IMG/VR virus record: IMGVR_UViG_3300045241_000135
Coordinates: 1 to 26,586 of that record
Direction: 5' to 3' (one strand)
Length of the DNA stretch: 26,586 nucleotides
Source of the DNA: a virus
The notes under the pieces are model-generated. The model was not told where the DNA came from, did no database searches, and was given only the letters and a program-made list of their open reading frames with translations. Position 1 is the stretch's first letter; each line of letters opens with the position of its first letter. Below are positions 1-26,014 of this stretch, piece after piece. The position numbers were made by a program, and so were the translations under genes.

Positions 1-1
1 C

Positions 2-595
2 AAAGCGCAGAAGGGACCATGGGCCGACCCGGTATTTTATCCCGAGATGGCGCGAAAGACCGTGGCGCGGCTGCACTCAAAACAGCTGCCGATGTCGACC
101 GACCTCGACCGCCTCATGCACCGCGACGACGCCTTGTACGATTTCGACCGCGCGCGCGAGGAAGGCCGTAAGGTCGAGCGGCCTGGCTCGGCAGCTGCGG
201 CGCTTGATTGGTTTGCGGAAGGCGGCGCGCCGCAAGAGGCAGCGGCACCCGCAGCACGAACGCCCCGAACTCCCCGAGCTTCCCCAGCGTCCAAAACCGA
301 TGACCAACCGCATCGCACGATCGTAGGTGCGGACGCTGGCGAGGCACCGGCGGCGGCGCCTGCTTCTGGTCACGAGTCGCAGGTGCCGTCGTCGGCTGTT
401 TCCAAGAGCGAAGATGAATACCGCGCCTATGCGCGCGTGATTGTCGACGAGGCGACGTCTGCCGATGAATTGGAACGCTGGTTTCGCTCGGACGTGCAAC
501 GCAAGTTGCGCAACTCGGCCGGCGTGAGGCGCGATGCCTTCGAAGAGATCAACGGATGGATAGCCGAGAAATGCAAGGCTTTGGACGTAGGCTGA
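2..595 (+). CDS. recT: RecT-family ssDNA-annealing recombinase, C-terminal part (cut by window start)
   Basis: The frame is open from base 2, so the gene enters from outside the window and the first ATG at 47 is an internal methionine. The first residues read KAQKGPWADPVFYPEMARKT, followed by VARLHSKQLPMSTDLD and RDDALYDF. This is the typical C-terminal part of RecT-type proteins, where a GPW motif precedes M(A/K)RKTVxRxxxKxLP. RecT proteins bind single-stranded DNA and promote annealing during phage recombination. The family core ends near residue 50 of this fragment; the rest is an Ala/Pro/Arg-rich linker and a C-terminal segment (DEATSADELERWFRSD...) that I do not recognise, possibly a protein-interaction tail. 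The next gene follows 12 bases later, so the two are probably co-transcribed. Family assignment rests on motif memory only. Confidence 0.8.
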   Translation, partial: KAQKGPWADPVFYPEMARKTVARLHSKQLPMSTDLDRLMHRDDALYDFDRAREEGRKVERPGSAAAALDWFAEGGAPQEAAAPAARTPRTPRASPASKTDDQPHRTIVGADAGEAPAAAPASGHESQVPSSAVSKSEDEYRAYARVIVDEATSADELERWFRSDVQRKLRNSAGVRRDAFEEINGWIAEKCKALDVG

Positions 596-607
596 AGGGA
601 GACTGAA

Positions 608-976
608 ATGCAACAGTGGAACGACAACACCACCGATCCGGACGAGCTGATTAAGAGGCTCAACGAAATCACGAGCAAGAGCAACGACGGCGCCGAACCA
701 GCGCAGCCCGCGCAGACGGCCTCAACCGCGAAGGTTCTCGCGCATCTCGAAGAGGTCGCCGAGAAAGCGATCGGGATGCAATGCGCGGTCATCCGTGAGC
801 TGATCGCCGAGGCACAACTCCTAGACAATGTGCTCGTCGCAGACCTGGCGCGCATTCGCGAGACGCTGCGCGTAGGCATCAACACCGGCGCTCGTGCCGC
901 GGCGCTCGCGCAGCAGATTCGGGATGCGATGTCCGAGATGAAAGCCGCGCATGGCGACCTGCAAGTACAGACATGA
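608..976 (+). CDS. Small coiled-coil protein of unknown function, downstream of recT
   Basis: A 122-residue protein. The start is supported by AAGGGAG about 6 bases upstream and by its position 12 bases after the recT stop. The N-terminus is acidic and polar, followed by an Ala/Pro/Gln linker (residues about 36-47). From about residue 48 to the end the sequence is helical and heptad-like (LAHLEEVAEKAIG, LIAEAQLLDNVL, ALAQQIRDAMSEM), consistent with a coiled coil. No signal peptide or membrane segment is visible. Position next to recT suggests a role in the recombination or replication module, for example an accessory or single-strand-binding partner, but nothing in the sequence shows this. 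I do not recognise the family. The GGCNN array begins 9 bases after its stop codon. Confidence 0.75.
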   Translation: MQQWNDNTTDPDELIKRLNEITSKSNDGAEPAQPAQTASTAKVLAHLEEVAEKAIGMQCAVIRELIAEAQLLDNVLVADLARIRETLRVGINTGARAAALAQQIRDAMSEMKAAHGDLQVQT

Positions 977-984
977 ATTTTCTT

Positions 985-1076
985 GGCACGGCGCGGCGAG
1001 GCACGGCTCGGCAGGGCGGGGCCCGGCGCGGCGAGGCACGGCACGGCACGGCTGGGCAAGGCGAGGCAAGGCAAGG
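985..1076 (+). repeat. GGCNN degenerate pentanucleotide array 1 (18 units)
   Basis: Eighteen consecutive 5-base units run without a phase break from 985 to 1074, followed by a final GG. Each unit has GGC fixed and two variable bases; the dinucleotides in order are AC GC GA AC TC AG GG CC GC GA AC AC AC TG AA GA AA AA. The GG in fixed phase every five bases gives a (GG-N3)n pattern that could form two-tier G-quadruplexes. The unit is not a multiple of three, so it is unlikely to be coding; frames stay open through it only because GGCNN rarely creates stops. It lies between the coiled-coil gene and the secreted-protein gene. Confidence 0.9.
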
Positions 1077-1200
1077 ATTGTTTTTATCAGTTTTCAAAAG
1101 TTGCGATGCGCAGTTGAAACCGGAAGAGAGGCCGAAGGCATGTAAGACGGAATGCCCACCTAAACTAAACTTCAACCTTCATGATGATGAGGAACAGCAA
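1077..1200 (+). promoter_or_regulatory. AT-richer leader of the secreted-protein gene; probable promoter region
   Basis: Directly after array 1 the composition changes to an AT-richer stretch (TTGTTTTTATCAGTTTTCAA) with no convincing gene. It leads to a good ribosome binding site, GAGGA at 1189-1193, seven bases before the ATG at 1201. A separately transcribed moron would need its own promoter here, and the gene has its own terminator downstream, but I cannot pick a clear -35/-10 pair. The promoter call is therefore inference from gene organisation. Confidence 0.3.
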
Positions 1201-1896
1201 ATGAGAAAGCTTTTGCTACTAGCAAGCGCCTTCGCGGCCCTGGCCACTCCTGCCTTGGCCGACACGTTCCGGGCCGATTCGTTCACTCAGCCGAACGGGT
1301 TTCAGGACGTCACCATCACGCTCGGTGCGCTGACTGAAACCGTGCGGGCGGGTGAGATCAACCTGCACCAGAACAATCCCACCGCCGATCTGTTGGTCTG
1401 GTGCCTGGACGTGAATGATTTGTTGACTGTACCCTACACGTTCCAACTGCATCAACTCGGCGCTGGGCAGACTTTCCCAGGGCTTCCTCCCGGCGGCTTT
1501 GATGGTGGGCAGCTGCGGCAGATTGCAAGCCTGATGCTGCGTGGCCTGACGCTGGGCGGTCTCGACGCCAACCAGGACGACGCGGCAACGCAGCTCGCCA
1601 TCTGGCGCGTGGAGTATGGCGCGGCGATCGTGTTCGCTAATCTGCCCACCGCGCTGCTCAACCGCATGAACCTCGAGCTCGCCGACAGCGCACCTGGCGG
1701 ATCAATCGATTGCCCGACCTGCACGCTCACTGTCCTGACCGACGCTGTGAATGCGCCAAACCAGGCGCTTGGGTTCGCTGTCAACGCAGTACCAGGACCC
1801 ATCGCAGGCGCCGGACTGCCCGGACTGATCGCGGCCTGCTTTGGCCTGCTCGGCCTTGGCTGGCGGCGCCGGCGGCGCAACACGACAACCGCCTAA
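1201..1896 (+). CDS. Secreted protein with thioester-domain motifs and a PEP-CTERM-like anchor (likely moron)
   Basis: 231 residues. The start at 1201 is chosen for its ribosome binding site and because it gives a clean signal peptide (residues 1-20, cleavage after ALA); the longer open frame from 973 only reads through the repeat array. The C-terminus carries a sorting-type tripartite signal: VPGP (197-200), a hydrophobic stretch (about 201-220) and an Arg cluster (222-226), like PEP-CTERM proteins handled by exosortase systems. The middle has the three motifs of thioester adhesin domains: a Cys in a hydrophobic strand (C68, WCLD), TQLAIW (130-135, the TQxA signature) and a late Gln near the end of the domain (NQALGF, Q188). 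In that family the Cys and late Gln form an internal thioester that couples covalently to surfaces. Two further Cys lie at 171 and 174. The domain call is by motif only. It has its own terminator and sits between two repeat arrays, as expected of a lysogenic-conversion gene. Confidence 0.7.
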   Translation: MRKLLLLASAFAALATPALADTFRADSFTQPNGFQDVTITLGALTETVRAGEINLHQNNPTADLLVWCLDVNDLLTVPYTFQLHQLGAGQTFPGLPPGGFDGGQLRQIASLMLRGLTLGGLDANQDDAATQLAIWRVEYGAAIVFANLPTALLNRMNLELADSAPGGSIDCPTCTLTVLTDAVNAPNQALGFAVNAVPGPIAGAGLPGLIAACFGLLGLGWRRRRRNTTTA

Positions 1897-1939
1897 CGAA
1901 GTGAGCCGGTAGGCACCTGCCCCGCCTGCCGGCAAACAG

Positions 1940-1976
1940 CCCGCCGAGTTCATAGCCGCATCGCTCGGCGGGTTTT
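1940..1976 (+). terminator. Rho-independent terminator after the secreted-protein gene
   Basis: A perfect 9-base-pair stem, CCCGCCGAG (1940-1948) with CTCGGCGGG (1964-1972), has a 15-base loop and is followed by TTTTCTTC. It starts 43 bases after the stop of the secreted-protein gene and precedes the second GGCNN array, so the arrays and the gene form a transcriptionally separable block. Confidence 0.85.
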
Positions 1977-1982
1977 CTTCAC

Positions 1983-2110
1983 GGCGCGGCGCGGCCGGGC
2001 GCGGCGGGGCAAGGCAAGGCGTGGCGCGGCGCGGCAGGGCGTGGCTAAGGCCCGGCAAGGCAAGGCAAGGCTGGGCATGGCGTGGCTTGGCGAGGCGAGG
2101 CAAGGCGAGG
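1983..2110 (+). repeat. GGCNN degenerate pentanucleotide array 2 (about 25 units)
   Basis: About 25 units of GGC plus two variable bases run from 1983 to 2108, followed by a final GG, with a single phase break (one extra A at 2048 after a GGCTA unit). Dinucleotides include GC, CG, GG, AA, GT, AG, CC, TG, AT, TT and GA. The orientation is the same as array 1. It starts six bases after the T-run of the terminator and ends 12 bases before the DnaA-like gene, whose only purine-rich upstream stretch (GGCGAGG) is the last unit of the array. No such array occurs elsewhere in the window. Confidence 0.9.
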
Positions 2111-2122
2111 GTTAGATTATCC

Positions 2123-2650
2123 ATGACCTACGATCATTGGAAGACGACCGATCCTACCGACACCGAGTATTGCCGCTGCGGCCTATGGCGCGGCGATTGC
2201 GTCGCGGACGCCGATGGGCAATGCCCGAAGCGGTGCGCCCCGATTGGTGGGCTCTTTGCGCACAACAACAAAAAGCGCCGTCCACGCATCTATGAAATCC
2301 AACAATTGGTCGCAGCGCGGTTCGGGATCAGCGTCGATGAGCTGATCAGCCCGGTGCGGGGAACACGGCTCACGATTGCGCGCTGGATCAGTATGAAATT
2401 ATGCGCCCGGTATGTCTGGATGTCGTGTGCCGGCATCGCGCGCGCACATCACCGCGACCACTCGACGATGTTCACTGGCATGCGGAAACTCGAGGCGATG
2501 CTTGACGCCGGCCGCTCGCCGTTCTGCGGGCACTTAGCCGCCATCGAGGCGCAATTGCGCGATCAGGGCTTCCGGCTGCATGCGGTGGCGCGAGTCAACA
2601 ATTTGCCCGTATCGGAGAAATTGGACGTGTCCAAGTTTGCGTCATATTAG
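2123..2650 (+). CDS. DnaA domain IV-like DNA-binding protein
   Basis: 175 residues from the ATG at 2123; the longer open frame from 2021 is array read-through. Residues about 55-128 resemble DnaA domain IV, the helix-turn-helix that binds DnaA boxes: IYEIQQLVAARFGISVDEL, a basic helix (TIARWISMKLCARYV), then RDHSTMFTGMRKL (111-123), which matches the DnaA signature (R/K)DH(T/S)T with following Arg-Lys. No AAA+ ATPase domain is present. The N-terminus is Cys-rich (C17, C19, C26, C34, C38), a possible metal-binding knuckle. Such proteins in phages are expected to bind origin or operator DNA; here it could act in phage replication or compete with host DnaA. That role is inference. The small gene at 2664 follows after 13 bases. 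Confidence 0.7.
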   Translation: MTYDHWKTTDPTDTEYCRCGLWRGDCVADADGQCPKRCAPIGGLFAHNNKKRRPRIYEIQQLVAARFGISVDELISPVRGTRLTIARWISMKLCARYVWMSCAGIARAHHRDHSTMFTGMRKLEAMLDAGRSPFCGHLAAIEAQLRDQGFRLHAVARVNNLPVSEKLDVSKFASY

Positions 2651-2663
2651 GAAATTGTGACTA

Positions 2664-2846
2664 ATGGCCCGCGGCGAATGCACATTTCGTCAACGTGATG
2701 TAACGGCGGCACTCAAAGCCGCCCGTGACGCCGGTGCCGAGGTGGTGCGCGTCGAGATCGACAAGACCGGCAAGATCATCATCGTCATGCGCAACGGAGC
2801 CGAACCGGGCGAAACGGAAAGGACCAATGAGTGGGACGAAAAGTGA
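2664..2846 (+). CDS. 60-residue protein of unknown function, upstream of the integrase
   Basis: A small basic-acidic protein with an N-terminal helix (VTAALKAARDAG) and a two-strand segment (EVVRVEIDK, KIIIVM), ending in a polar acidic tail. Its end overlaps the integrase start by 16 bases, implying translational coupling. I recall similar short proteins next to integrases in Hyphomicrobiales prophages, but no function is known to me. An excisionase or integrase-partner role would fit the position, yet it lacks an obvious winged-helix signature. The upstream ribosome binding site is weak (GGAAA). Confidence 0.65.
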   Translation: MARGECTFRQRDVTAALKAARDAGAEVVRVEIDKTGKIIIVMRNGAEPGETERTNEWDEK

Positions 2847-3895
2847 AGTGGCCGAAATACGTTGATGGATTCGCCGATCGGTTCGGCAAGCCGCGGTTCT
2901 ATTTGCGGCGGCCTGGCCTGCCGCGAGTGCCATTGCCAAACATGCCATGGTCGCCGGAATTCATGGCCGCCTATGAAGCCGCGTTAGGCGGCGCCGCCTC
3001 TGCTGCGAAGATCGAGATCGGGGCGCAGCACACCGTGCCAGGCACTATTAACGCCGCCGTCGTCGCATTCTACAAGAGTTACACTTTCACGAAAAACAAG
3101 CCCATCACACGCCAGACTGATCGCAACATCTTAGAGACCTTCCGCATTCGGCATGGCGATAAGCGCTTGGCCACTATGGAGCGGCGCCACGTCGTGTCGA
3201 TGCTGGCAGAGAAGGCGGACCGGCCCGCCGCTCAACGCAACCTGCTGCGGGTGCTCCGCGTGCTGCTGGGCTTCGCGGTCGAGGAAGGGCTTCGCCCCGA
3301 CAACCCGGCGCTCGGCATCAAGCTGAAAACCACCACGACGGCCGGGTTCCATTCGTGGTCCGAGGACGAGCTGCGCCAGTACGAGGCGCGCCACCCGATC
3401 GGCAGCAAGGCTCGGCTCGCCCTCGCCCTTCTGCTCTACACGGCACAACGGCGGTCGGACGTCGTCAATCTTGGTCCGCCAATGCTGCGTGGTGGACGGC
3501 TCCTTTTCACGCAATCGAAGACCAGGACCGAAATGGATATTCCGATCGCCATGCCCCTTGCCGATATCCTGGCCGCGACTCCCATGATCGGGGTTAAGAC
3601 TTTTCTCGTCACGGACTATGGCCGCCCGTTCACTGCGGCGGGCTTCGGTGGGTGGTTTCGCGAGCGGTGCGACGAGGCGGGCCTTCCCCATTGCAGCGCC
3701 CACGGGCTGCGCAAGGCGTTCCTGCGGCGCATGGCCGAGGCCGGATGCTCCGAGGACTTCATCGCTTCGGTCAGCGGCCACAAGGACATGCGCGAGATCA
3801 GGATCTATGTTGCGGCCGCCAATAAGGCGCGCATGGCAACCGAGGGCATGGCACGCACGCTCGCCGCCTTCCCCGAAAAGGGCAGGAATAAGTGA
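2831..3895 (+). CDS. int: Tyrosine recombinase (phage integrase)
   Basis: 354 residues, with a GTG start at 2831 preceded by AAAGGA seven bases upstream; the ATG at 2827 is in another frame and soon stops. The catalytic set is visible: R207 (QRRSD), K230 (TQSKTR, beta-hairpin Lys), H291 and R294 (HGLR), H317 (SGHK) and nucleophile Y326 (RIYVAAA). The N-terminal part (FYLRRPGLPRVPLPNMPWSP) is the arm-binding-like region common in integrases of Bradyrhizobium-type prophages, followed by a SAM-like core-binding domain at about 72-150. It catalyses site-specific integration between attP and attB; the candidate attP lies about 330 bases downstream. All catalytic residues appear intact, so it is probably active. 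Confidence 0.95.
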   Translation: MGRKVKWPKYVDGFADRFGKPRFYLRRPGLPRVPLPNMPWSPEFMAAYEAALGGAASAAKIEIGAQHTVPGTINAAVVAFYKSYTFTKNKPITRQTDRNILETFRIRHGDKRLATMERRHVVSMLAEKADRPAAQRNLLRVLRVLLGFAVEEGLRPDNPALGIKLKTTTTAGFHSWSEDELRQYEARHPIGSKARLALALLLYTAQRRSDVVNLGPPMLRGGRLLFTQSKTRTEMDIPIAMPLADILAATPMIGVKTFLVTDYGRPFTAAGFGGWFRERCDEAGLPHCSAHGLRKAFLRRMAEAGCSEDFIASVSGHKDMREIRIYVAAANKARMATEGMARTLAAFPEKGRNK

Positions 3896-4305
3896 GCGAT
3901 CCCTATCACCACATGAGACAAACTTATGGAGCTTTCGGGTCTGGCGAGTGGCGACGCAATCGCCCGAAAATACAAGAGGCCTCGACGATGCATCCGAGCC
4001 AGATAGGCTGCGTCCCGTGACTGCGACGGTAGCATATGGGGCGCCTAGCCGAGCGTCCGATGAGGATACGCAGGAAGGCGGGGAAGCGGAATGTGTTTCT
4101 GCAACCTTTGCTCAATTCGGCAACCAACATGCAGCGCAAGTGAACAGATGGATTGCCAAACCCCAGGAAAAAAAATTGCCAAACTTTGGTTAAGTCATTG
4201 AAGATAAGGGGATTTTTTAGGGGGGGTGGCAGGAGTGGAGGGACTACGATAAGTGCGAAAGATCAATGGCTTAGACTGCCAAACCGGCGTAACGGCGCGC
4301 ATAGA
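3896..4305. other. 410-base intergenic region between integrase and membrane-protein genes
   Basis: No convincing gene is present. The first part (3896-4150) contains one imperfectly terminator-like hairpin (TTTCGGG at 3933-3939 with CCCGAAA at 3963-3969, no T-run). The second part (about 4150-4305) is AT-richer, with A8 and T6 runs and a G7 run, and holds the candidate attP described separately. Open frames crossing the region are not supported by a ribosome binding site or by sensible protein composition. Confidence 0.6.
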
Positions 4306-4336
4306 ATGCAAAAGAGAATTTGGCGAATTGCCAAAC
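4153..4336 (+). repeat. Four direct repeats of TGCCAAAC (candidate integrase arm sites)
   Basis: The octamer TGCCAAAC occurs at 4154-4161, 4177-4184, 4277-4284 and 4329-4336, all in the same orientation; three copies are TTGCCAAAC and the third is CTGCCAAAC. Start-to-start spacings are 23, 100 and 52 bases, so two copies lie on each side of the tRNA-like core at 4227-4249. The second copy is part of a palindrome, CCAAACTTTGG. Single copies also occur at 2934-2941 (inside the integrase gene) and, reversed, at 23953-23960, as expected by chance; only this cluster is dense. Phage attP sites typically carry short direct repeats bound by the integrase N-terminal domain. Confidence 0.55.
4227..4249 (-). 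other. attP: Candidate attP core: tRNA 3'-end identity segment
   Basis: Read on the minus strand, the segment contains AGTCCCTCCACTCCTGCCA. This has the layout of a tRNA 3' end: the last three T-loop bases, T-stem CCCTC, a seven-base acceptor strand CACTCCT, discriminator G and encoded CCA. The T-loop bases beyond it (TCGT instead of TTCG) diverge and no complete tRNA folds here, as expected for a phage-borne identity segment rather than a gene. The G73 and acceptor sequence resemble tRNA-Trp, but I cannot confirm which tRNA. It lies downstream of int and between pairs of TGCCAAAC repeats. Confidence 0.55.
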
Positions 4337-4908
4337 TAGCCGCGACCCTCTCTTTGCTCGCCGGTGCCGAACCCGCCCGCGCCGCTACCGCGATCGAGTG
4401 CGCAGCGCACAAGAATGGATCCGGATACTATTCGTGGCGTGATGTGGACGGGCGGCGCTGCTGGTACCCAGGCCGCCGACGCCTGGCCAAGACCGATCTC
4501 TACTGGCCCGCAGAGGCGCGCCAGGCTGCGGCGGATCGAGCGCAGGCTACAACCCGCCCCACTCGGCCGCCGGCCGCACCAGTGCCCGCCCAGGCCGAAG
4601 CTGGTGCGGTGCTGGTCACGATCGGCGAACGCTGGCCCGATAACGACTGGACGGAACTGTACCGAGGACTAGTATCGGACGCGGCGGTGGTCGCACCAAC
4701 CGGCCCTGTGCCTCGCGATGTCCCCATCGACGACGGCCAGATCGGGCCGGCCGCCATGGACCGCCGCCACCCACCGTCACTGCTGCCGACGCTTGTCGCG
4801 CTCGTGCTCGGCATTGCCATGATGGGCGCCGGCGCGATGATCGTTACTTCTGGCCGCAGGGTTCGGGTACAGGCGAAAGTCGGTAAGCCCCTCTCTAATA
4901 TTTTGTAA
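4306..4908 (+). CDS. Exported, membrane-anchored protein of unknown function
   Basis: 200 residues from the ATG at 4306. A longer frame reaches back to a TTG at 4153, but only this ATG gives a good signal peptide (KRIWRIAKLAATLSLLAGAEPARAA). The mature N-terminus has a short Cys/Trp-rich module (IECAAHKNGSGYYSWRDVDG, then RRCWYPG) of a kind I recall in many Bradyrhizobium exported proteins. A Pro/Ala-rich linker follows, then a C-terminal transmembrane helix (about residues 160-182: TLVALVLGIAMMGAGAMIVTS) and a basic tail. The upstream ribosome binding site is weak. The gene lies just beyond the candidate attP, and its first codons include the fourth TGCCAAAC copy. A role in surface modification or exclusion of other phages is possible but not shown. 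Confidence 0.6.
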   Translation: MQKRIWRIAKLAATLSLLAGAEPARAATAIECAAHKNGSGYYSWRDVDGRRCWYPGRRRLAKTDLYWPAEARQAAADRAQATTRPTRPPAAPVPAQAEAGAVLVTIGERWPDNDWTELYRGLVSDAAVVAPTGPVPRDVPIDDGQIGPAAMDRRHPPSLLPTLVALVLGIAMMGAGAMIVTSGRRVRVQAKVGKPLSNIL

Positions 4909-6450: not shown

Positions 6451-6678
6451 CTACCTTACAGCCCCGATGAGGTGGACCGACGGGATGCCGAGCAATAGGG
6501 CGACCAGCATGTAGAGCCCGACGAGGGCGACCACGATCATATACCCTTTCTGCACGTTCGGAGGCACGCTTTGCCCCATCCACGACATGAACCATATGAT
6601 GACCGCGCCCACCAACAAAAGGATCGCGACGACGATCGCGATGTCGATGATTCCCAACAAGATGCCACCAAGGGACAT
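6451..6678 (-). CDS. Two-span membrane protein, probable holin
   Basis: 75 residues with two hydrophobic helices (about 8-32 and 46-64) separated by a short polar loop (MGQSVPPNVQKG), the layout of class II-type holins that permeabilise the inner membrane to let the endolysin out. The ribosome binding site is excellent (AAGGAGG, then five bases to the ATG). It is the first of three small membrane-protein genes upstream of the amidase. Assignment rests on size, topology and position rather than on a recognised family. Confidence 0.65.
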   Translation of the reverse strand: MSLGGILLGIIDIAIVVAILLLVGAVIIWFMSWMGQSVPPNVQKGYMIVVALVGLYMLVALLLGIPSVHLIGAVR

Positions 6679-6691
6679 GATCGCCTCCTTA

Positions 6692-7279
6692 TCAAAGGCT
6701 CGTCGAGTAATTTACATTGAGAGTGTCCCCATTCACGACCGACTTATCGCCGGTCGAGAACGTGCCCGCCGACCACAACACACCGTTGGTGTCGTCCTTG
6801 GTGGCGACCGCGCCTGAGCCGAAGCAAAGGAACGCGCCCTTGACGGTGCCCGTGCTCGTAATCGCAAACGACAGCGCCGCCGATAACGCCTTCGATCCCG
6901 ATGCTGCCGCCGACCAAACTGCGGTTTTGCGGTTGCCGGAATAAGTCGGCGCGTTGGTGCCGCCGGCCTCAAGCCATCCCGAATGCGACGCCATCGTGTC
7001 GCCGGCCGCCGGACCCGTCGTGTAGGACACCGACGAGATCAGGCCCATGTAGGGCCCGACCACGGTGTATGCCGATCCGGCCAGGAAAGTATCGAGCGCC
7101 AAATTCTTACCGACCGTCTGCACGACGTTTTCGATCGTGTCACGCCATTTGAGTTTGCCGTCCGCACTGATGCATTCGACCTCATAACGGCCATGCGCCT
7201 CGGCCTGCTCGCCGAGGCCACTGCCGCGGACAACAGACGCGTCGTTATGCTCGCGCGCGTTGGCGCGTTCCTCAGTCAT
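6692..7279 (-). CDS. Virion or tail-fibre-associated protein
   Basis: 195 residues. Two in-frame ATGs exist (7291 and 7279); GGAG lies between them seven bases before 7279, which I prefer. The N-terminus is polar; the body is rich in Gly, Ser, Thr and Ala (GNRKTAVWSAAASGSKALSA, SFAITSTGTVKGAFLCFGSG) and looks beta-structured, with the repeated small-residue pattern common in phage fibre and decoration proteins. It lies directly after the large beta-helix-like protein and before the lysis genes. I recognise the style from Hyphomicrobiales phage tail regions but not a named family. It is probably part of the host-recognition apparatus. Confidence 0.6.
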   Translation of the reverse strand: MTEERANAREHNDASVVRGSGLGEQAEAHGRYEVECISADGKLKWRDTIENVVQTVGKNLALDTFLAGSAYTVVGPYMGLISSVSYTTGPAAGDTMASHSGWLEAGGTNAPTYSGNRKTAVWSAAASGSKALSAALSFAITSTGTVKGAFLCFGSGAVATKDDTNGVLWSAGTFSTGDKSVVNGDTLNVNYSTSL

Positions 7280-7298
7280 GGGTTTCTCCATTTGATGG

Positions 7299-14924: not shown

Positions 14925-17816
14925 TCAGCTATACCGACTTGGTTTTCTTCCGCCGCTTCGGACCTGTGACAGTGCAGCGGCCCTGCGCAATTCATCGACC
15001 ACTCCCGATGAGGCGCGCAGGCCGGTGATCTCGGGCAACCCTGGGAAGTTGATGGTGACATGGTTCATGCCGCCACCGGCAAAAGCGGGAATCGAGATTG
15101 GCGCGCGCACCATGCCACCGAGCGCGAAGCGGCCCATGCCGTCGAGCACAGCGCGCAGGTTGCCGCCCGAGTGTCGCAGCGATTCCAGAAACGCCAACAC
15201 GCCCGGCTGCGCCACCGCATGCGCCGGCATGATGTGTTCCCCGCGCGATACCCAGGACAGGTTCGAGTCGGATGTCCCGGTGCCCCGCCCGCCGATCAGA
15301 CCGCCGCGGGCATTGCCAGAAATGTTGCCGTCCGCAGGCGCGGGTGTGCCGCCGCCGAAGCCCAACGAGGCCAGCATTTCATTCCATTTTTGTTTGATCC
15401 AGCCCCAGGCGTTCGCGACGGGCGTCGTAACCCAGTCACGAACCAACTGCTTGCCCTGCTCGACCTTGGTGCCGATGTAGCCGATAATCTCATCCCATTT
15501 TTGATTGATCCAGCCCCAGGCATTCTCGACGGGCGTCGTGACCCACTCATTAATGAAGGCCTTCCCCTCGGCGACCTTTTGGTTGACCCACGCAATGAGA
15601 CCGTTCCATGTGTCCTTGATCCAGCCCCAGGCGTTCGCAACCGGCGTCGTGACCCACTCATCAATGAAGGCCTTGAGTGCCCTGTACTTTGCTTCAATGG
15701 CGTTGCTTGCATCTATCGCAGCCTGTTTTATTTCCGGCCAATAGATGATGAGCGCAGCCAATGCCGCAGCAATCGCCGCAAGTGCTGCCACAATCACCAA
15801 GGCCCATGGGCCGCCGACGATTGTGGCCAAGATACCGAAGGAAACTCCGAAGGCAGTGAATGCCGACGCCACGACCGTAGCCACCGACGCCAACGCCTGC
15901 AGTGCTCCCGTCATCGATCCGATGAGTGTCAACAGGATCGCTCCCGTACCAGAGATCTCCGTCCCGAATATGCGAGACATGATCGGCGCGAGAGCTACAC
16001 CGGCACGGCGCAGGGCGAGAAAAGCAATAATGATCACGCCAATCGCCGCCGGCAATTCCTTGGCAATCTCCTTGATGGAGTCAACAAACTCTTTCACCCA
16101 AGGAGTCTGTACCGCGCCCTCTCCGGTGATCGCCCGCATGAAGTCGCCAAGTACTCCTTCAGACTGCAAAATAGACTGCTTGATAGTGCGGAACGCGACA
16201 TCGGCCGAAGCCGCGAACAGCCCCCAGAATGATTGAAAGTCGCCCGCAAACAGCGCCGCAAACGCCTGCTTGAATCCCAATATTGCATTTGGGATCAAGT
16301 CCATCGCCTTGGTGGCGCCCTCCTTGATCTGATCCCAGAACAGCGCCACCAGAGCGATGAGCGGAATCAAGATGGGCCCGAACCCGGAGAACAACGAAAT
16401 CAACAGCGAGAATGGTGTCAGCACCACTTGGATGCCCTTGAGCGCGATCGCCAACCCGGTGGCGGCAATCGCCGCAGTTATGAAAAATGCCGCTATGTCG
16501 GTTGATTTTACTCCCTCAAGATTGTCGGCGATCTGCCCGATAATTCCCGCAATCATTTCACCAGCCGGGACCAGGACGTCGCGCCAAATCCCGGCCAACT
16601 GGTTGCCGAGCGCGACCAAAACCTTGAACGCGGTTTCCGCCGGACCGCTGGCAAGGTTTTCGAGGAATCCCCCTTTCTCTACCTCGGACAACCCGAGCCA
16701 GTTTTTCAGCAACTCCCGTGTGCCGTCGACCAGGTTTGTCAGCCATTCAGCTCGACCCAATGCACCACCCAGAAACAGCGCGCCGATCTGATCTCTGGTG
16801 GCGCGGACGGCCTTGCCAAGATCATCCCACGCTTCCTTGACTTTTTTTGCCGTGTCTACCTGCTCTGCCGTCAACTCGCGCGAGGCCTTGAGCGGGTCGG
16901 TAATCGCACCCGGCGCAGTAGCCAGGACTTTGATCACTTCCTTCCAGTTCTCGCCAAATAATTTCACGCCTGCTGCGGCCTGCTTCGTGGCATCCGGCAT
17001 CCGGCTAATGGCCGTCGCAAGCTCGCGCAGTACGGCGGCGTTATCACCAGTTCGGAGTGAATTGATGTTGAGGCCGAGGTCACGAAACAGCTTCGCCAAG
17101 TCGCCGGTTGCCTTCGATAGTGAACCGCTGACGACAGTGACTTTGTTCCCACCGAAATCGAATTCCTGGAATACTCCCTTGAGCTCATCCCGCATCTTGT
17201 CGAGTTGCTTATTGGCCGTGTCTGCTGATTTTACAAAATCTTCGTTGGATACACCCGAGCCAGCAATGGCTTTGCGCAGCTCTACCCACTGCTCAGTGGG
17301 TATCTTCAATTTCTCGGCTTGGTCGGCGATAGTGGACCCGGTTTCTACCGCGCCCTTGGTTAGAGCGTTGGTGATGGCAGCGATGGCGCCAACAATGCCG
17401 GCGGCAGCAATCTTGAACGCGGTGGCGGTTGAAATAAGTCGCTGACTGGCCGACTGGCCGGAAACCGCGATCTGTTGCGAGGCCTGCCCGATTGCACTCC
17501 CGACCTGTTCCGCTGCGGCCGCGGTTTGCTGCAATCCGGACGCGACATCGAGGGCCGACTTTACACCGCGGCTTCCGAACGAGACGACGCTTTCGGCCAG
17601 CCCCTTGAATTGATCTCCCAGTTGCGCGCCTGCGGCACCGAGGCGATCGAATGCCTGCTTGGTTTGGTCTACTCGTGCCGGATCAACCTTAACATTCGAA
17701 GCGGCGTCGCTGATCTGCTTGAACGACTTCTCGCCGGCCTTGCCGAGATCTTCCAGCTTCTTGCGGATGTCCTCCGAGCCCTCAAGGCTGATGCGCTGGC
17801 TTATCGTGTTGGCCAT
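14925..17816 (-). CDS. Tail tape measure protein
   Basis: 963 residues, the longest gene, placed after the chaperone and before the tail-tip genes as in siphoviruses. The N-terminal third is helical and Ala/Gln-rich (EDIRKKLEDLGKAGEKSFKQ). Hydrophobic stretches occur at about 134-152, 440-495 and 600-705, typical of tape measures that enter the host membrane. Residues about 720-822 contain tandem 37-residue repeats centred on WVTTPVxNAWGWI. A Gly-rich segment and a conserved-looking end (GGLIGGRGTGTSDSN, SRGEHIMPAHAV) follow; this latter motif is common near the C-terminus of alphaproteobacterial tape measures. The protein sets tail length and helps DNA pass the cell wall. AGGGG lies nine bases before the ATG. 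Confidence 0.9.
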   Translation of the reverse strand: MANTISQRISLEGSEDIRKKLEDLGKAGEKSFKQISDAASNVKVDPARVDQTKQAFDRLGAAGAQLGDQFKGLAESVVSFGSRGVKSALDVASGLQQTAAAAEQVGSAIGQASQQIAVSGQSASQRLISTATAFKIAAAGIVGAIAAITNALTKGAVETGSTIADQAEKLKIPTEQWVELRKAIAGSGVSNEDFVKSADTANKQLDKMRDELKGVFQEFDFGGNKVTVVSGSLSKATGDLAKLFRDLGLNINSLRTGDNAAVLRELATAISRMPDATKQAAAGVKLFGENWKEVIKVLATAPGAITDPLKASRELTAEQVDTAKKVKEAWDDLGKAVRATRDQIGALFLGGALGRAEWLTNLVDGTRELLKNWLGLSEVEKGGFLENLASGPAETAFKVLVALGNQLAGIWRDVLVPAGEMIAGIIGQIADNLEGVKSTDIAAFFITAAIAATGLAIALKGIQVVLTPFSLLISLFSGFGPILIPLIALVALFWDQIKEGATKAMDLIPNAILGFKQAFAALFAGDFQSFWGLFAASADVAFRTIKQSILQSEGVLGDFMRAITGEGAVQTPWVKEFVDSIKEIAKELPAAIGVIIIAFLALRRAGVALAPIMSRIFGTEISGTGAILLTLIGSMTGALQALASVATVVASAFTAFGVSFGILATIVGGPWALVIVAALAAIAAALAALIIYWPEIKQAAIDASNAIEAKYRALKAFIDEWVTTPVANAWGWIKDTWNGLIAWVNQKVAEGKAFINEWVTTPVENAWGWINQKWDEIIGYIGTKVEQGKQLVRDWVTTPVANAWGWIKQKWNEMLASLGFGGGTPAPADGNISGNARGGLIGGRGTGTSDSNLSWVSRGEHIMPAHAVAQPGVLAFLESLRHSGGNLRAVLDGMGRFALGGMVRAPISIPAFAGGGMNHVTINFPGLPEITGLRASSGVVDELRRAAALSQVRSGGRKPSRYS
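15351..15659 (-). repeat. Tandem 111-base repeats inside the tape measure gene
   Basis: Two full units (15549-15659 and 15438-15548) and a partial third (about 15351-15437) repeat at exactly 111 bases, or 37 codons. The plus-strand landmark CCAGCCCCAGGC recurs at 15399, 15510 and 15621. Each protein unit begins (E/D)WVTTPV(A/E)NAWGWI, and later positions diverge. Because the units are in frame, gain or loss would change protein length without a frameshift. Confidence 0.9.
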
Positions 17817-21221: not shown

Positions 21222-22520
21222 TCATCGTACTCTTCTAGCAGATATATAGCCGGTCACGCTCACCGTTCCGCCGCCGAAGGTCGCGAACGCCACCAGATAC
21301 ACTGGCTTCGGCGTGCTGGTGTTGACGCGAATGAGGCTCGTTGGCGTTGTCTGGGTCTTGTTCGAAGGCATCGAACTCGCCCAAATCTGCTGCATGATGG
21401 CCTTGCCTGTGGCCACGTCGTTGTCTGACGGCAACGTCGCCGCCGTCTGGCTCAGCGCCGCAATGACGGAATTGGGCCCGGTGTTGGCCGGCGAAAAGAT
21501 AACCACCCCGCCCACGTTCCAGTCGCCAGGTGACAGGGTTATGTAGGTGACGTTAATCGACACGTTCGTGGTCAAGGCGATTCCGCCAAAATTAGTAGAC
21601 GAGATAACCTCGCCCACCATGCCCGCAGCAGCATCGCTTCCGTCGGTCACGCCTTTGATCGGACCAGTGTTCGGAACGTAGATGAGGCTGTCGGTCCCGA
21701 GCTTGGCTAGGTTTCCAGCGTTGGCGCTGACGGAAGTCGGCCCTGCCGGTCCAACCGGGCCTTGCGGGCCCGTTGTGCCAGCGCTGCCAGCATCGCCCTT
21801 GTCGCCCTTTGGCCCCTGCGGGCCCGTCGCCCCTGGGGCTCCGGTGGCTCCTGGTGCGCCAGTTGCCCCTGCCGGCCCCTGAGGACCAGGAACGGTGGAA
21901 TCCGCACCAGCGGGCCCCGTAGGCCCGGGCGGACCCTGTGGACCGGGAACGGTGGATGCCGCCCCCGGCACGCCTTGCGGTCCGGCTACACCTGGCTGAC
22001 CCTGGGCGCCCTGCGGTCCTTGCAACCCTTGCGGGCCTTGCGGGCCAACCTGACCCTGCGGCCCCGGGTCGCCTTGCGGCCCTTGCGGCCCAGGAGGTCC
22101 GGCCGGGAGATTCGGTCCCGTGAGCGTGCCGCTGATCGAGAGATCGCCGTTGAGGATGATGTTGCCGTCGATCGTGCCACCGCGATGCACGTTGAGATCG
22201 GCAGCGCCGGCAACGACAGAGACTTGCGCCGCGCCCTTCAAGCTCAGCTTGGCTTGACTGACCACCCCGCCGATCGAAGAGTATCGCACCGCATTGCGCG
22301 CGAACGTGCAACTCTGTGCTGTGCAATTACTGGCCGTGGCTTCTGATAGTTCAAAATCACTGCCTTCCTCGAGCAGCAGCGTGACCGGATCGCCATCGCG
22401 CACGCCGGCATCGTAGGGGCGCATGTACCGCGGCTCGGGGTCGGTGACTACGACATTGCCGGTACCGAGCGTGGCCGTAGGGCACACAACGCGGTCGAAC
22501 GGCGTTCCCATCACGGTCAT
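21222..22520 (-). CDS. Collagen-like structural protein
   Basis: 432 residues. Residues about 141-260 are Gly-X-Y triplets rich in Pro and Gln ([16 protein letters not shown]) with two short interruptions (ASTV and DSTV). The N-terminus (about 1-130) is beta-rich, with a glycine-capped segment [20 protein letters not shown] before the collagen part. The C-terminal domain (about 270-432) is beta-rich and probably trimerises ([20 protein letters not shown], then [15 protein letters not shown]), resembling phage tail-fibre heads. Such proteins form trimeric fibres. The start shares TAATG with the upstream gene. Because it lies in the connector-to-tail interval, a head or neck fibre is as likely as a tail fibre. 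Confidence 0.8.
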
Positions 22521-22954: not shown

Positions 22955-23605
22955 TCACACATGAAGGCGCATGTAAGCGTTGAGCAAGGCGTTGACGGTG
23001 TCGGTTGCCGCCTGCAGCGGCCCAGTGCTGCCAGACTTGCCACCGAACATCTGCACCGGATCGAAATACTGTATGCGGGTGTCTTGATGCGAGATCAATC
23101 GGACGCCTTTGGAGGCATTGATCTGCGCCTGCAGCCGCGCGGCCTGGATCAAGAGCCCGGTCGCTGCCTTGAGTGCCTGCGGCGCCTCGTCCGGCAGGTG
23201 GTAGCCGCCGCTGTAGGTTACCATGACCGGCTCGGTCCAACGCCCTTCGATGCGCAGCTTGCCGGAGCTGTTTTCGATCTCGTAGCTCGCCGGGTCGAGC
23301 GTTGAACCTCGCGGCGATTCCACCGCCGTCAGGTCGGCGTCGGCGACCGGGTAGCGCGTCAAGAACAAACGCGGAGCGTCGAACGGCAGCAAGTCGCCGC
23401 GCCAGGTCTCTTCGACTGTCTCATAAGCAAACACGCGATTGCACATGGTCGCGACCACGTCGCTGTACTGATCGATCCACAACTGCAGCTGCGTGTCCTC
23501 GCCGGTGTTCGTCGACGGCACGTTGAGCATGGCCTTCAGCTCGTCCAGCGTCAGTAGCGCATAGCTATTGGCCGGCGTCAGCACCTTGACCCAGACATCC
23601 GCCAT
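22955..23605 (-). CDS. gp6-like head-tail connector protein
   Basis: 216 residues. The N-terminus has the familiar connector motif PANSYALLTLDELKAMLNVP followed by EDTQLQLWIDQYSDVVATMC, the helical segment of the HK97 gp6 family. The central strand region (DAPRLFLTRYPVADADLTAV, then LDPASYEIENSSGKLRI) and the motif VMVTYSGGYHLPDEAPQALK are also typical. It forms a ring below the portal that joins head and tail. GAGG lies eight bases upstream and the start overlaps the previous stop as TGATG. Confidence 0.85.
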   Translation of the reverse strand: MADVWVKVLTPANSYALLTLDELKAMLNVPSTNTGEDTQLQLWIDQYSDVVATMCNRVFAYETVEETWRGDLLPFDAPRLFLTRYPVADADLTAVESPRGSTLDPASYEIENSSGKLRIEGRWTEPVMVTYSGGYHLPDEAPQALKAATGLLIQAARLQAQINASKGVRLISHQDTRIQYFDPVQMFGGKSGSTGPLQAATDTVNALLNAYMRLHV

Positions 23606-24627
23606 CAGCGCGCCTCGTCGTGGAACTGCTCGAACAGTGCGCGCAGTTCAAGCGGTGGTGCCGGGCTTTGGTCCGAGAGGATCGGCGTGGCCGCATAAGC
23701 CTTACGGTCGATCGTCCAACCGATGATCAACGGCGCCGCCGCACCCGGCAACCCGCGCACACCAGGCTCGCCGCGTTCGCCGGTGTCGCCCTTCGGCCCC
23801 TTGATGCCAGGCTTGCCGGCCGAGGCGATCAACTGCCAGCCCTCGCCCGGACAACGGCCGGGCTGGTCGCGCCGGGCAATGAAGCTCGAACCGCCGAGCG
23901 CGACGATATCGAGCGCCGCATAGGTTTCGCCCTCGCTCCAGGTGCCACGCACGTTTGGCATCGCTGCGTCGCGCCCCTTGGCGGCGATGCAAAGCCAATC
24001 CTCGTGCGGTGGCGCGCGGGCGGTATCGCAACGTGCCTGCCAGGTACTGCCCGAGGCAAGCACAACGTCGCCCTCATAATGGACCGCGCCCTCGACGAAT
24101 GCTTTCGCCACGCTCAAACGCCCCGGCGCACCTTGCTCGCCGCGCTCGCCTTTCTCTCCGCGCTCGCCTTTCTCTCCGCGCTCGCCTGCCGCACCAACTT
24201 CGCCTTGCTCACCCCGAGCACCTGCTGCGCCAACTTCGCCTTGTTCTCCGCGTTCGCCTTGTTCTCCGCGTTCGCCTGCCGCCCCGGCTTCGCCCTGCTC
24301 TCCGCGCTCGCCTGCCGCGCCAACTTCGCCGCAATTGCCTTTCTCGCCCTGCTCACCACGTTCGCCCTTCTCTCCGTCCTTGAGCTCGCCAAGCCGCGCC
24401 ATGACCTGCGCCATAACGTCAGCACGTAGCTCTGTAACTTCAGCCCGCAGCGTTGCGATGACTTCGGCCGCCTGCGCCTCGATCAGAGCGCGCTCGCGCT
24501 GCCATTGCCGGCGCTCGGTGTCGAGCACCTCGCCGAGCGCCTCGCTCCACGCATCAAGCAGCGGGTCGGCGTCGTCCGAATCGGTCGGCACTGGCATGAA
24601 TGCTTCGGACCTTTCGTGCAGTGTCAT
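23605..24627 (-). CDS. Collagen-like protein with ChiC-type carbohydrate-binding modules
   Basis: 340 residues from ATG 24627, with AAGG eight bases upstream; this start lies inside the portal gene (74-base overlap). The order is: acidic N-terminus; coiled coil (about 33-82: RERALIEAQAAEVIATLRAE); Gly-X-Y with charged X and Y (about 85-169: GEKGERGEQGEKGNCGE); two Trp-containing modules (HYEGDVVLASGSTWQARCDT and YAALDIVALGGSSFIARRDQ) of the small chitin-binding-like type; a second short Gly-X-Y stretch (about 268-292); and a C-terminal tail. This layout is a trimeric fibre that could bind glycans. It is encoded between portal and connector, so a head- or neck-attached fibre is plausible. The charged triplets suggest salt-bridge stabilisation instead of hydroxyproline. 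Confidence 0.8.
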   Translation of the reverse strand: MTLHERSEAFMPVPTDSDDADPLLDAWSEALGEVLDTERRQWQRERALIEAQAAEVIATLRAEVTELRADVMAQVMARLGELKDGEKGERGEQGEKGNCGEVGAAGERGEQGEAGAAGERGEQGERGEQGEVGAAGARGEQGEVGAAGERGEKGERGEKGERGEQGAPGRLSVAKAFVEGAVHYEGDVVLASGSTWQARCDTARAPPHEDWLCIAAKGRDAAMPNVRGTWSEGETYAALDIVALGGSSFIARRDQPGRCPGEGWQLIASAGKPGIKGPKGDTGERGEPGVRGLPGAAAPLIIGWTIDRKAYAATPILSDQSPAPPLELRALFEQFHDEAR

Positions 24628-26014
24628 CGCGGTTGCCTTTTTGCGGCGGTGCCGGTGTTGGCGGCTTTGACTGCTCGTTCGGCGCTGGCGGCGCCGCGAT
24701 CGGCGCTGATGGCGCGACCGGCGCGGGAATCTTGCCGACTTGGCTGAGCGGTACGACCTGCTGCTGCACGCGCGGCTCGTCGCCGTAGGGCACTGCTTCA
24801 TAGCCTTCGAGCGCCCGCGCTTCATTCGGCGCGAAGATGCCGCCTTGCACACCGCGCGCAAGGCTTTCGATGCGGTCTTTCATCGCCGAGCGCAGTAGCG
24901 CTTCGGTGTCGAACTCCACGTACTCGTCGGGCTGTCCCTGGAGGTCGAACAACAGCCCGAGCGATTCTTCAATGTGATTGAGCGCGAACCCCAAACCGCT
25001 GGCGATCCAGCTCTGCATCAGCAACTCGGTTGAACTGTAGGTCGTGCCGCCGATGCCGAGGATTTGCAATGGGATGCGAAAGGCGAGCGCAATGTGCTCG
25101 TTCGATAGCTTCAGCATCTCCGCGGTGGCGGCATCCTTGCCGCTTTGCGACCAGGGCAGGACCTTCAGGCCAGAAGTAAGGATCGGTGTGCCGCCCTGGT
25201 GCAGGCCTTTTGCCTGCTCGTTCCATCGGTCGCGCAGGGCCTGTACCTGGTCCTTGTCGAGCGTCAGATCGGTCGAGATCACGGCCGATGGCCGCGCCTG
25301 GTTGAGATAGTAGCGCAGCTGCTGCTGCCCGATCGCGCTGTTGATGCCGATATCGCTATAGGCCGCGACGATCGGGCTCTCGCCGACCAGCGGCGACGGG
25401 TAGCGATGCTGCACCGTATGCAAGCGGATGTGCAGCACGTCGCGTTGCGGCACGAGAATCGGCTCGGGTCCGAACCGCTTCTCGACAACCTGGTTGCCGT
25501 GCAACTGATAGAAAATCTCACCGTTGCTGGCGAGGCGCGGATAGGACAACTGCGGGTCCATCAGGTGCAACTCGTCGATCTCGAACCGCGCGTTGCGCAG
25601 CCCGAGCGCATAGGTGTTGCCGTAAAGGTAGAGCGAGCGTGTTGCGTTGAGCAGAAAATCACTGATGGATTGATAGTCGTTAGGATGACGAAGCAGGCGC
25701 GAGAGCGACGACGTCTTGATGCGCTCGCGCCCGCCTTTGTCGTTGAGCCGCCAATGATCGCCGGGACACATGGCGACGGTTTGCGAATAGGCGGACACGC
25801 AAGCCTCGACCATCGCCGATTGCGTCGATAGCCCGACGATGTTGTGCCCGTTCTGCCACCAGTTCCAGCTGTCGCCGACGTCGGCCGGAAGCCAGCCGCC
25901 GCTGACCGGCAGCAGCCATGGGCCGGCGTGCGGTTCGCCCTCGGCCTTGCTAAGCGTCGGAACGCTCCCGGCCTTGACGCGAAACCGCGGCTTGGCGACA
26001 GCCGTCTCAGTCAT
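24554..26014 (-). CDS. HK97-type portal protein
   Basis: 486 residues. Portal features include the helical segment VEACVSAYSQTVAMCPGDHW, LLRHPNDYQSISDFLLNATR (the typical HPN motif region), LYLYGNTYALGLRN, the strand DVLHIRLHTV with GESPIVAAYSDIGINSAIGQ, and the stem and crown helices (FRIPLQILGIGG, then TYSSTELLMQSWIASGLGFA). The Pro-rich C-terminal tail (about 425-470) overlaps the start of the collagen-like gene. The portal forms the dodecameric DNA entry ring. Its ATG overlaps the upstream gene stop as ATGA. Confidence 0.95.
   Translation of the reverse strand: MTETAVAKPRFRVKAGSVPTLSKAEGEPHAGPWLLPVSGGWLPADVGDSWNWWQNGHNIVGLSTQSAMVEACVSAYSQTVAMCPGDHWRLNDKGGRERIKTSSLSRLLRHPNDYQSISDFLLNATRSLYLYGNTYALGLRNARFEIDELHLMDPQLSYPRLASNGEIFYQLHGNQVVEKRFGPEPILVPQRDVLHIRLHTVQHRYPSPLVGESPIVAAYSDIGINSAIGQQQLRYYLNQARPSAVISTDLTLDKDQVQALRDRWNEQAKGLHQGGTPILTSGLKVLPWSQSGKDAATAEMLKLSNEHIALAFRIPLQILGIGGTTYSSTELLMQSWIASGLGFALNHIEESLGLLFDLQGQPDEYVEFDTEALLRSAMKDRIESLARGVQGGIFAPNEARALEGYEAVPYGDEPRVQQQVVPLSQVGKIPAPVAPSAPIAAPPAPNEQSKPPTPAPPQKGNRDDTARKVRSIHASADRFGRRRPAA

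Follow-up and report, generated by a model that had tools for sequence, protein, structure and literature searches.

VIPR is a CRISPR-like phage system that combines Vipr, a small RAMP protein, with guide RNAs termed vrRNAs (PMC13142463, bioRxiv, April 2026). A vrRNA is built of 9-16 repeats with a constant GGY and a hypervariable NN. Successive NN pairs read the DNA with a single skipped base between them, mostly the wobble position of a codon, and transcription in competing phages is repressed by the complex (PMC13142463). This RNA-guided system was proposed very recently, may predate CRISPR and is known in detail from a few gammaproteobacterial phages. No other literature description of such arrays was found besides PMC13142463, which supersedes the remark in an earlier note on the DNA studied here that no published description was known.

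The window, i.e. the whole stretch of DNA analysed (26,586 nt, IMG/VR virus record IMGVR_UViG_3300045241_000135), carries two tandem arrays of GGCNN units. The closest described counterpart is the VIPR system of Escherichia phage SUSP1 (Vipr ALH47069.1, KT454805 28474-29061; structure PDB 36pp). Taken together with a near-identical phage, the locus has in common with SUSP1 the tandem GGY/NN arrays beside a RAMP-fold Vipr of ~20 kDa, the phage genome, the hypervariable NN, and a Vipr that falls in PHROG 4652 with detectable sequence homology. The SUSP1 array is mostly GGT (10/11 units), whereas the window arrays are GGC only. The SUSP1 arrays adjoin vipr/vap1, whereas the two arrays here lie 1.7-2.8 kb downstream of vipr (as placed by the near-identical phage) among other genes. 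Array 1, with its 18 units, is also unlike SUSP1.

Among longer known systems, the predicted fold of Vipr matches Csm, Cmr and type VII subunits and thus resembles the class 1 CRISPR-Cas backbone (Csm3/Cas7). By analogy with PMC13142463, it would likewise form a protein polymer on a guide RNA. Unlike class 1 CRISPR-Cas, no direct-repeat/spacer array and no other cas genes were seen here, and specificity would sit in each NN pair instead of in a contiguous spacer.

Anatomy of the arrays and their surroundings

The features of the array region are listed in Table 1. Both arrays, recT, the 122-aa ORF, the secreted-protein gene and the DnaA-like gene share one strand. The earlier note had described two GGCNN arrays with an invariant GGC and a one-base slip, and recounting bears this out: GGC is present in 43/43 units and GGT in none, with 18 units in array 1 and 13 + 12 in array 2. 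Array 1 is unbroken (985-1074) and directly followed by GG at 1075-1076. No further GGCNN runs of ≥ 4 units were found on either strand of the whole window. Runs reached no more than 4 units in 100 dinucleotide-preserving shuffles of the window. In the proposed comparison of GG phase with shuffled sequence, array 1 had 18/18 in-phase GGC, whereas 5000 shuffles of its bases gave 6 at the most. Since shuffled runs never exceeded four units, the arrays are real and not a product of chance.

Table 1. Features of the array region (window coordinates)
Feature	Position	Strand	Remark
recT, 3' part	2-595	+	cut by contig end; 100% identical to L149
122-aa ORF	608-976	+	no family; adjoins array 1
Array 1, 18 GGCNN units and terminal GG	985-1076	+	candidate vrRNA repeat tract; identical in L149
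Secreted-protein gene	1201-1896	+	signal peptide; VPGPIAGAGLPGL...RRRR C-terminus (sorting-signal-like)
Stable GC hairpin, then TTTTCTT	1938-1978	+	directly 5' of array 2; z -2.5
Array 2 block a, 13 GGCNN units	1983-2047	+	candidate vrRNA
Array 2 phase slip, one extra base (A)	2048	+	between blocks a and b
Array 2 block b, 12 GGCNN units (2049-2108) and terminal GG	2049-2110	+	candidate vrRNA
DnaA domain IV-like DNA-binding protein gene	2123-2650	+	adjoins array 2

The tandem five-base period is shared with bacterial microsatellites. Unlike these, the arrays use all 16 NN pairs (entropy 3.85 of 4 bits, 311 arrays), which slippage would not give. Slippage was therefore rejected, in line with the earlier argument that free NN exclude it. 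A CRISPR array was also rejected, as the five-base units with three fixed bases are not identical direct repeats with unique spacers. A coding repeat was considered and rejected as well.

The two blocks of array 2 fall inside the published range of 9-16 units and array 1 lies above it; 275 of 311 arrays (those with ≥ 9 units) count 9-16. Multi-guide arrays at three other loci (L042, L120 and L137) show slips of the five-base phase about every 9-13 units, which suggests that slips mark guide boundaries, and the slip at 2048 is probably such a boundary between two guides. Across the 311 arrays, the final two or three units show a drift of NN towards AA or GA. Both window arrays do likewise, array 1 ending in AA GA AA AA in agreement with the purine-A 3' bias of the subtype. 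Apart from this bias, no conserved structured 3' tail was recognised, and Rfam returned zero RNA families in the window or in five related loci. Folding of the array RNAs is no stronger than that of shuffled sequence (z -1.06 and -0.02), as expected of a single-stranded guide.

The secreted-protein gene is a passenger between the arrays and not a VIPR component. Secreted proteins with the same signal peptide, the same VPGPIAGAG(L/I)PGL...RRRR C-terminus and different middles are encoded at window 1201-1896, L150 9944-10753 and L185 4180-5119. They adjoin GGCNN arrays in related phages and look like swapped cargo with a sorting signal. The hairpin upstream of array 2 is a candidate terminator-like element or processing site. 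It was missed by the consensus scan, which had a loop limit of 8 and which found no consensus promoter. Integrase, RecT and endolysin families in the window, together with its IMG/VR record, fit the mainly phage or prophage coding of VIPR. Further along, two ORFs of the structural region (21222-22520 and 23605-24861, both minus strand) contain collagen-like Gly-X-Y runs (GPQGPQG, GERGEQGEKG). A 111-base tandem repeat of 2.7 copies (15379-15674) inside a 963-aa ORF on the minus strand corresponds to repeated tryptophan-rich segments of a probable tape-measure protein.

The vipr locus of a near-identical phage and the linkage of arrays to Vipr

The window begins inside recT, and no Vipr gene was found in it. 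IMG/VR contig 3300047409_000384 (L144/L149/L180, hereafter L149) is 98.4% identical to window 1-4500 and shows zero differences over window 1-984. Its gene order is yqaJ exonuclease, arrays (8 and 38 units), vipr (6665-7294), an array of 20 units and recT, followed by the 122-aa gene, array 1, the secreted protein, array 2 and the DnaA-like gene. By comparison with this phage, the phage of the window very probably carries vipr ~700 bases outside the window on its left side, where the contig end has cut it off. The earlier note had also held that the two arrays bracket exactly one cassette. An ORF for a secreted protein does lie between them, while 'exactly one' is an effect of the window edge, as more arrays lie upstream around vipr in the near-identical phage.

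The L149 protein matches PHROG 4652 at 1e-6, a family in which SUSP1 Vipr scores 1.4e-96. A profile restricted to the subtype (23 close relatives) retrieved SUSP1 Vipr (PDB 36pp) at 1.1e-5, and a wider Vipr profile did so at 1.1e-13. The AlphaFold model of the L149 protein (pLDDT 92.8) has its best PDB fold matches in the CRISPR Csm/Cmr/type VII backbone subunits (Csm3/Cas7 proteins), and the third match in a fold search against viral models is a viral protein annotated as RAMP. A glycine-rich C-terminal motif, GLGTFRGVFGKF, is conserved in Vipr of the L149 type. Homology and the predicted structure identify the protein as Vipr, a homologue of the SUSP1 protein with what appears to be a single-domain RAMP fold with a glycine-rich loop. 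Vipr is not represented in PADLOC or NCBIfam. Two PHROG families listed as of unknown function can now be named: Vipr belongs to 4652, and 5926 includes the gene next to vipr in SUSP1, which is probably vap1. Neither the window nor the L149 locus has a homologue of the two gene families that most often neighbour vipr elsewhere.

A scan of viral contigs for ten GGCNN units in phase yielded at least 120 stretches. Clustering of the ORFs near these arrays gave one dominant family, which includes SUSP1 Vipr. Among the 120 contigs listed, selected by their arrays alone, 85 encode Vipr within 900 bases of the array; several of the other 35 stretches are short or end near the array. The Vipr subtype of L149 comprises 79 contigs, and arrays of ≥ 7 units occur in the fetched DNA of 65 of them. 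These arrays lie in the intergenic DNA adjoining vipr and are on the vipr strand in 167/172 cases. Within 1 kb of vipr they occur upstream in 47/79 contigs and downstream in 49/79, and at least six contigs have distal arrays. Named carriers of the subtype are Paraburkholderia phenoliruptrix and Candidimonas nitroreducens, next to two metagenome-assembled genomes. In P. phenoliruptrix LMG 22037 (L160), the subtype Vipr is 61% identical and a GGYNN run of eight units occurs nowhere in the genome; the guides of this Vipr would thus be very short, of another kind or lost.

Exchange of candidate guides and search for targets

The window and L149 form a natural pair of phages whose differences are almost confined to one guide array and the adjoining gene. 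Array 1 is identical in both. The cassette between the arrays, which the earlier note had supposed to be variable, is conserved: the leader and secreted-protein gene differ at 0.66 positions per 100 bases. The change lies in array 2, with 18.75 differences per 100. In block a, the NN differ in 10 of 13 units and agree in 3; in block b, they agree in 9 of 11; every GGC is kept in both blocks. The proposal that the GGC core is under selection is supported; NN are replaced between relatives with each GGC retained. Block b has nine consecutive NN in common with L180. A related locus, L145, holds a third version of array 2 within the same flanks, and its next array has seven consecutive NN in common with block b (shuffled arrays reach at most 6, usually 4). 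The DnaA-like gene shows 5 differences per 100 bases relative to L149. Since the differences cluster at 1952-2410, the change of array 2 and the DnaA-like gene probably occurred by recombination over that tract. Such NN exchange around an unchanged GGC is the pattern one would expect of guides exposed to changing selection.

Targets were searched under the one-base-skip rule, by which array 1 decodes to ACxGCxGAxACxTCxAGxGGxCCxGCxGAxACxACxACxTG. NN 5-14 and NN 1-9 of array 1 gave 0 exact matches in viral contigs, and its first 14 NN had no match with ≤ 3 mismatches in 385 genomes, which may not be of the class of the host. Nine NN of block b matched twice, in one gene of two large contigs, and nine NN of block a matched three times, in one gene family on contigs of ~4.5 kb. 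The block a matches keep the reading frame, the skipped base falling on the wobble position (RAGKKVAAS). The matches of both blocks were rejected because the next NN pairs fail and about one chance match is expected in such a collection by our estimate. Comparison of 523 arrays with 2.3 Mb of loci, which is too little sequence to bear on the skip rule, gave 82 seven-NN matches with a skip of 1 and 81, 67 and 82 with skips of 0, 2 and 3. No targets of the Candidimonas guides were found within its family. Integrase matches point weakly to an alphaproteobacterial host; searches via the portal protein or the VPGPI-GAGLPG motif gave no host identification.

Interpretation of the arrays and significance

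We conclude with high confidence that both arrays encode guide RNAs (vrRNAs) and belong to a phage VIPR system with its vipr beyond the left end of the window. This reading is founded on the array anatomy, on vipr with its family and fold in the 98.4%-identical phage, on the linkage of arrays to Vipr and on the exchange of NN. Counting against it are the lack of Vipr in the window, the L150 locus described below, the target searches, the length of array 1, and the structured 3' tail and consensus promoter that were looked for and not found. Co-directional transcription would yield RNAs of repeating GGC-NN. Vipr subunits, as single-domain relatives of Csm3/Cas7, would assemble into a polymer along the GGC steps and expose each NN pair, and the earlier suggestion that the fixed bases serve recognition by a protein is supported. 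Together, the NN pairs would read DNA as NNxNNxNNx, and transcription of a rival phage or prophage would be blocked. Array 1 would provide one guide and array 2 two guides (13 and 12 units) joined at the one-base slip. For this exact genome, we infer vipr as well as transcription, loading, target and repression. The earlier note had also offered an RNA-level leader, which pointed in the right direction as to RNA, although a guide RNA fits in place of a leader.

Loss of vipr from this phage would leave orphan or decaying arrays, as remnants or served by the Vipr of another element. The window is without Vipr, and precedent is given by L150 (IMGVR_UViG_3300005439_000021), whose RecT is 88% identical. 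Its yqaJ-recT interval holds an HNH-like gene and not the array-vipr-array module, one AA-rich array of 12 units is left downstream, and no Vipr was found in its 53-kb record; L150 is possibly a loss or empty state of VIPR. However, L149 has the same sequence over window 1-984, with the end of its vipr ~700 bases before the point that corresponds to the window start, and GGC is kept in all 43 units with varied NN, unlike in a decaying array. We thus regard orphan arrays as improbable in the phage of the window. The earlier note preferred recombination patches that allow cassettes to be swapped with the phage RecT annealing protein. The arrays do flank a gene in the window, the array 2/DnaA-like stretch appears exchanged as a tract, and the L150 secreted protein has the same ends around a different middle. 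Yet the gene between the arrays is the conserved part and array 2 the changing one, vipr is surrounded by arrays without any other cassette at many loci, and the arrays go with Vipr, whereas RecT exceeds the cut-off in only 9/50 Vipr-bearing contigs. This explanation is very unlikely.

We give just as little credence to a DNA-level structural element, either a G-quadruplex or iterons of an origin linked to the DnaA-like gene, as the earlier note had also considered. The regular GG steps and the DnaA domain IV protein next to array 2 would suit it, but the DnaA C-terminal domain occurs in only 2/50 Vipr-bearing contigs, the NN vary freely between near-identical phages, and the preference for one strand relative to vipr fits RNA. 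The DnaA-like protein is possibly an accessory protein, but its domain is this rare among Vipr contigs.

With VIPR itself already known, what is special under the guide-RNA reading is the dispersal of the arrays and the block-wise replacement of guides. The window locus and 78 related contigs define a subtype from metagenomic phages and a few named bacteria (Paraburkholderia, Candidimonas), and plain GGCNN runs in raw DNA are a practical marker for VIPR loci. Because the two phages are near-identical, the way in which vrRNA guides change becomes directly testable. It is possible, if rather doubtful, that the guides of this subtype form a dispersed, independently evolving repertoire, with vrRNA genes placed along the early recombination operon away from vipr and replaced as whole blocks while the scaffold is kept. 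If true, this would imply that some mechanism allows guides to be acquired or exchanged, possibly recombination of arrays from phage to phage, and that there is a way for orphan guides to arise and be used in trans, as in L150.
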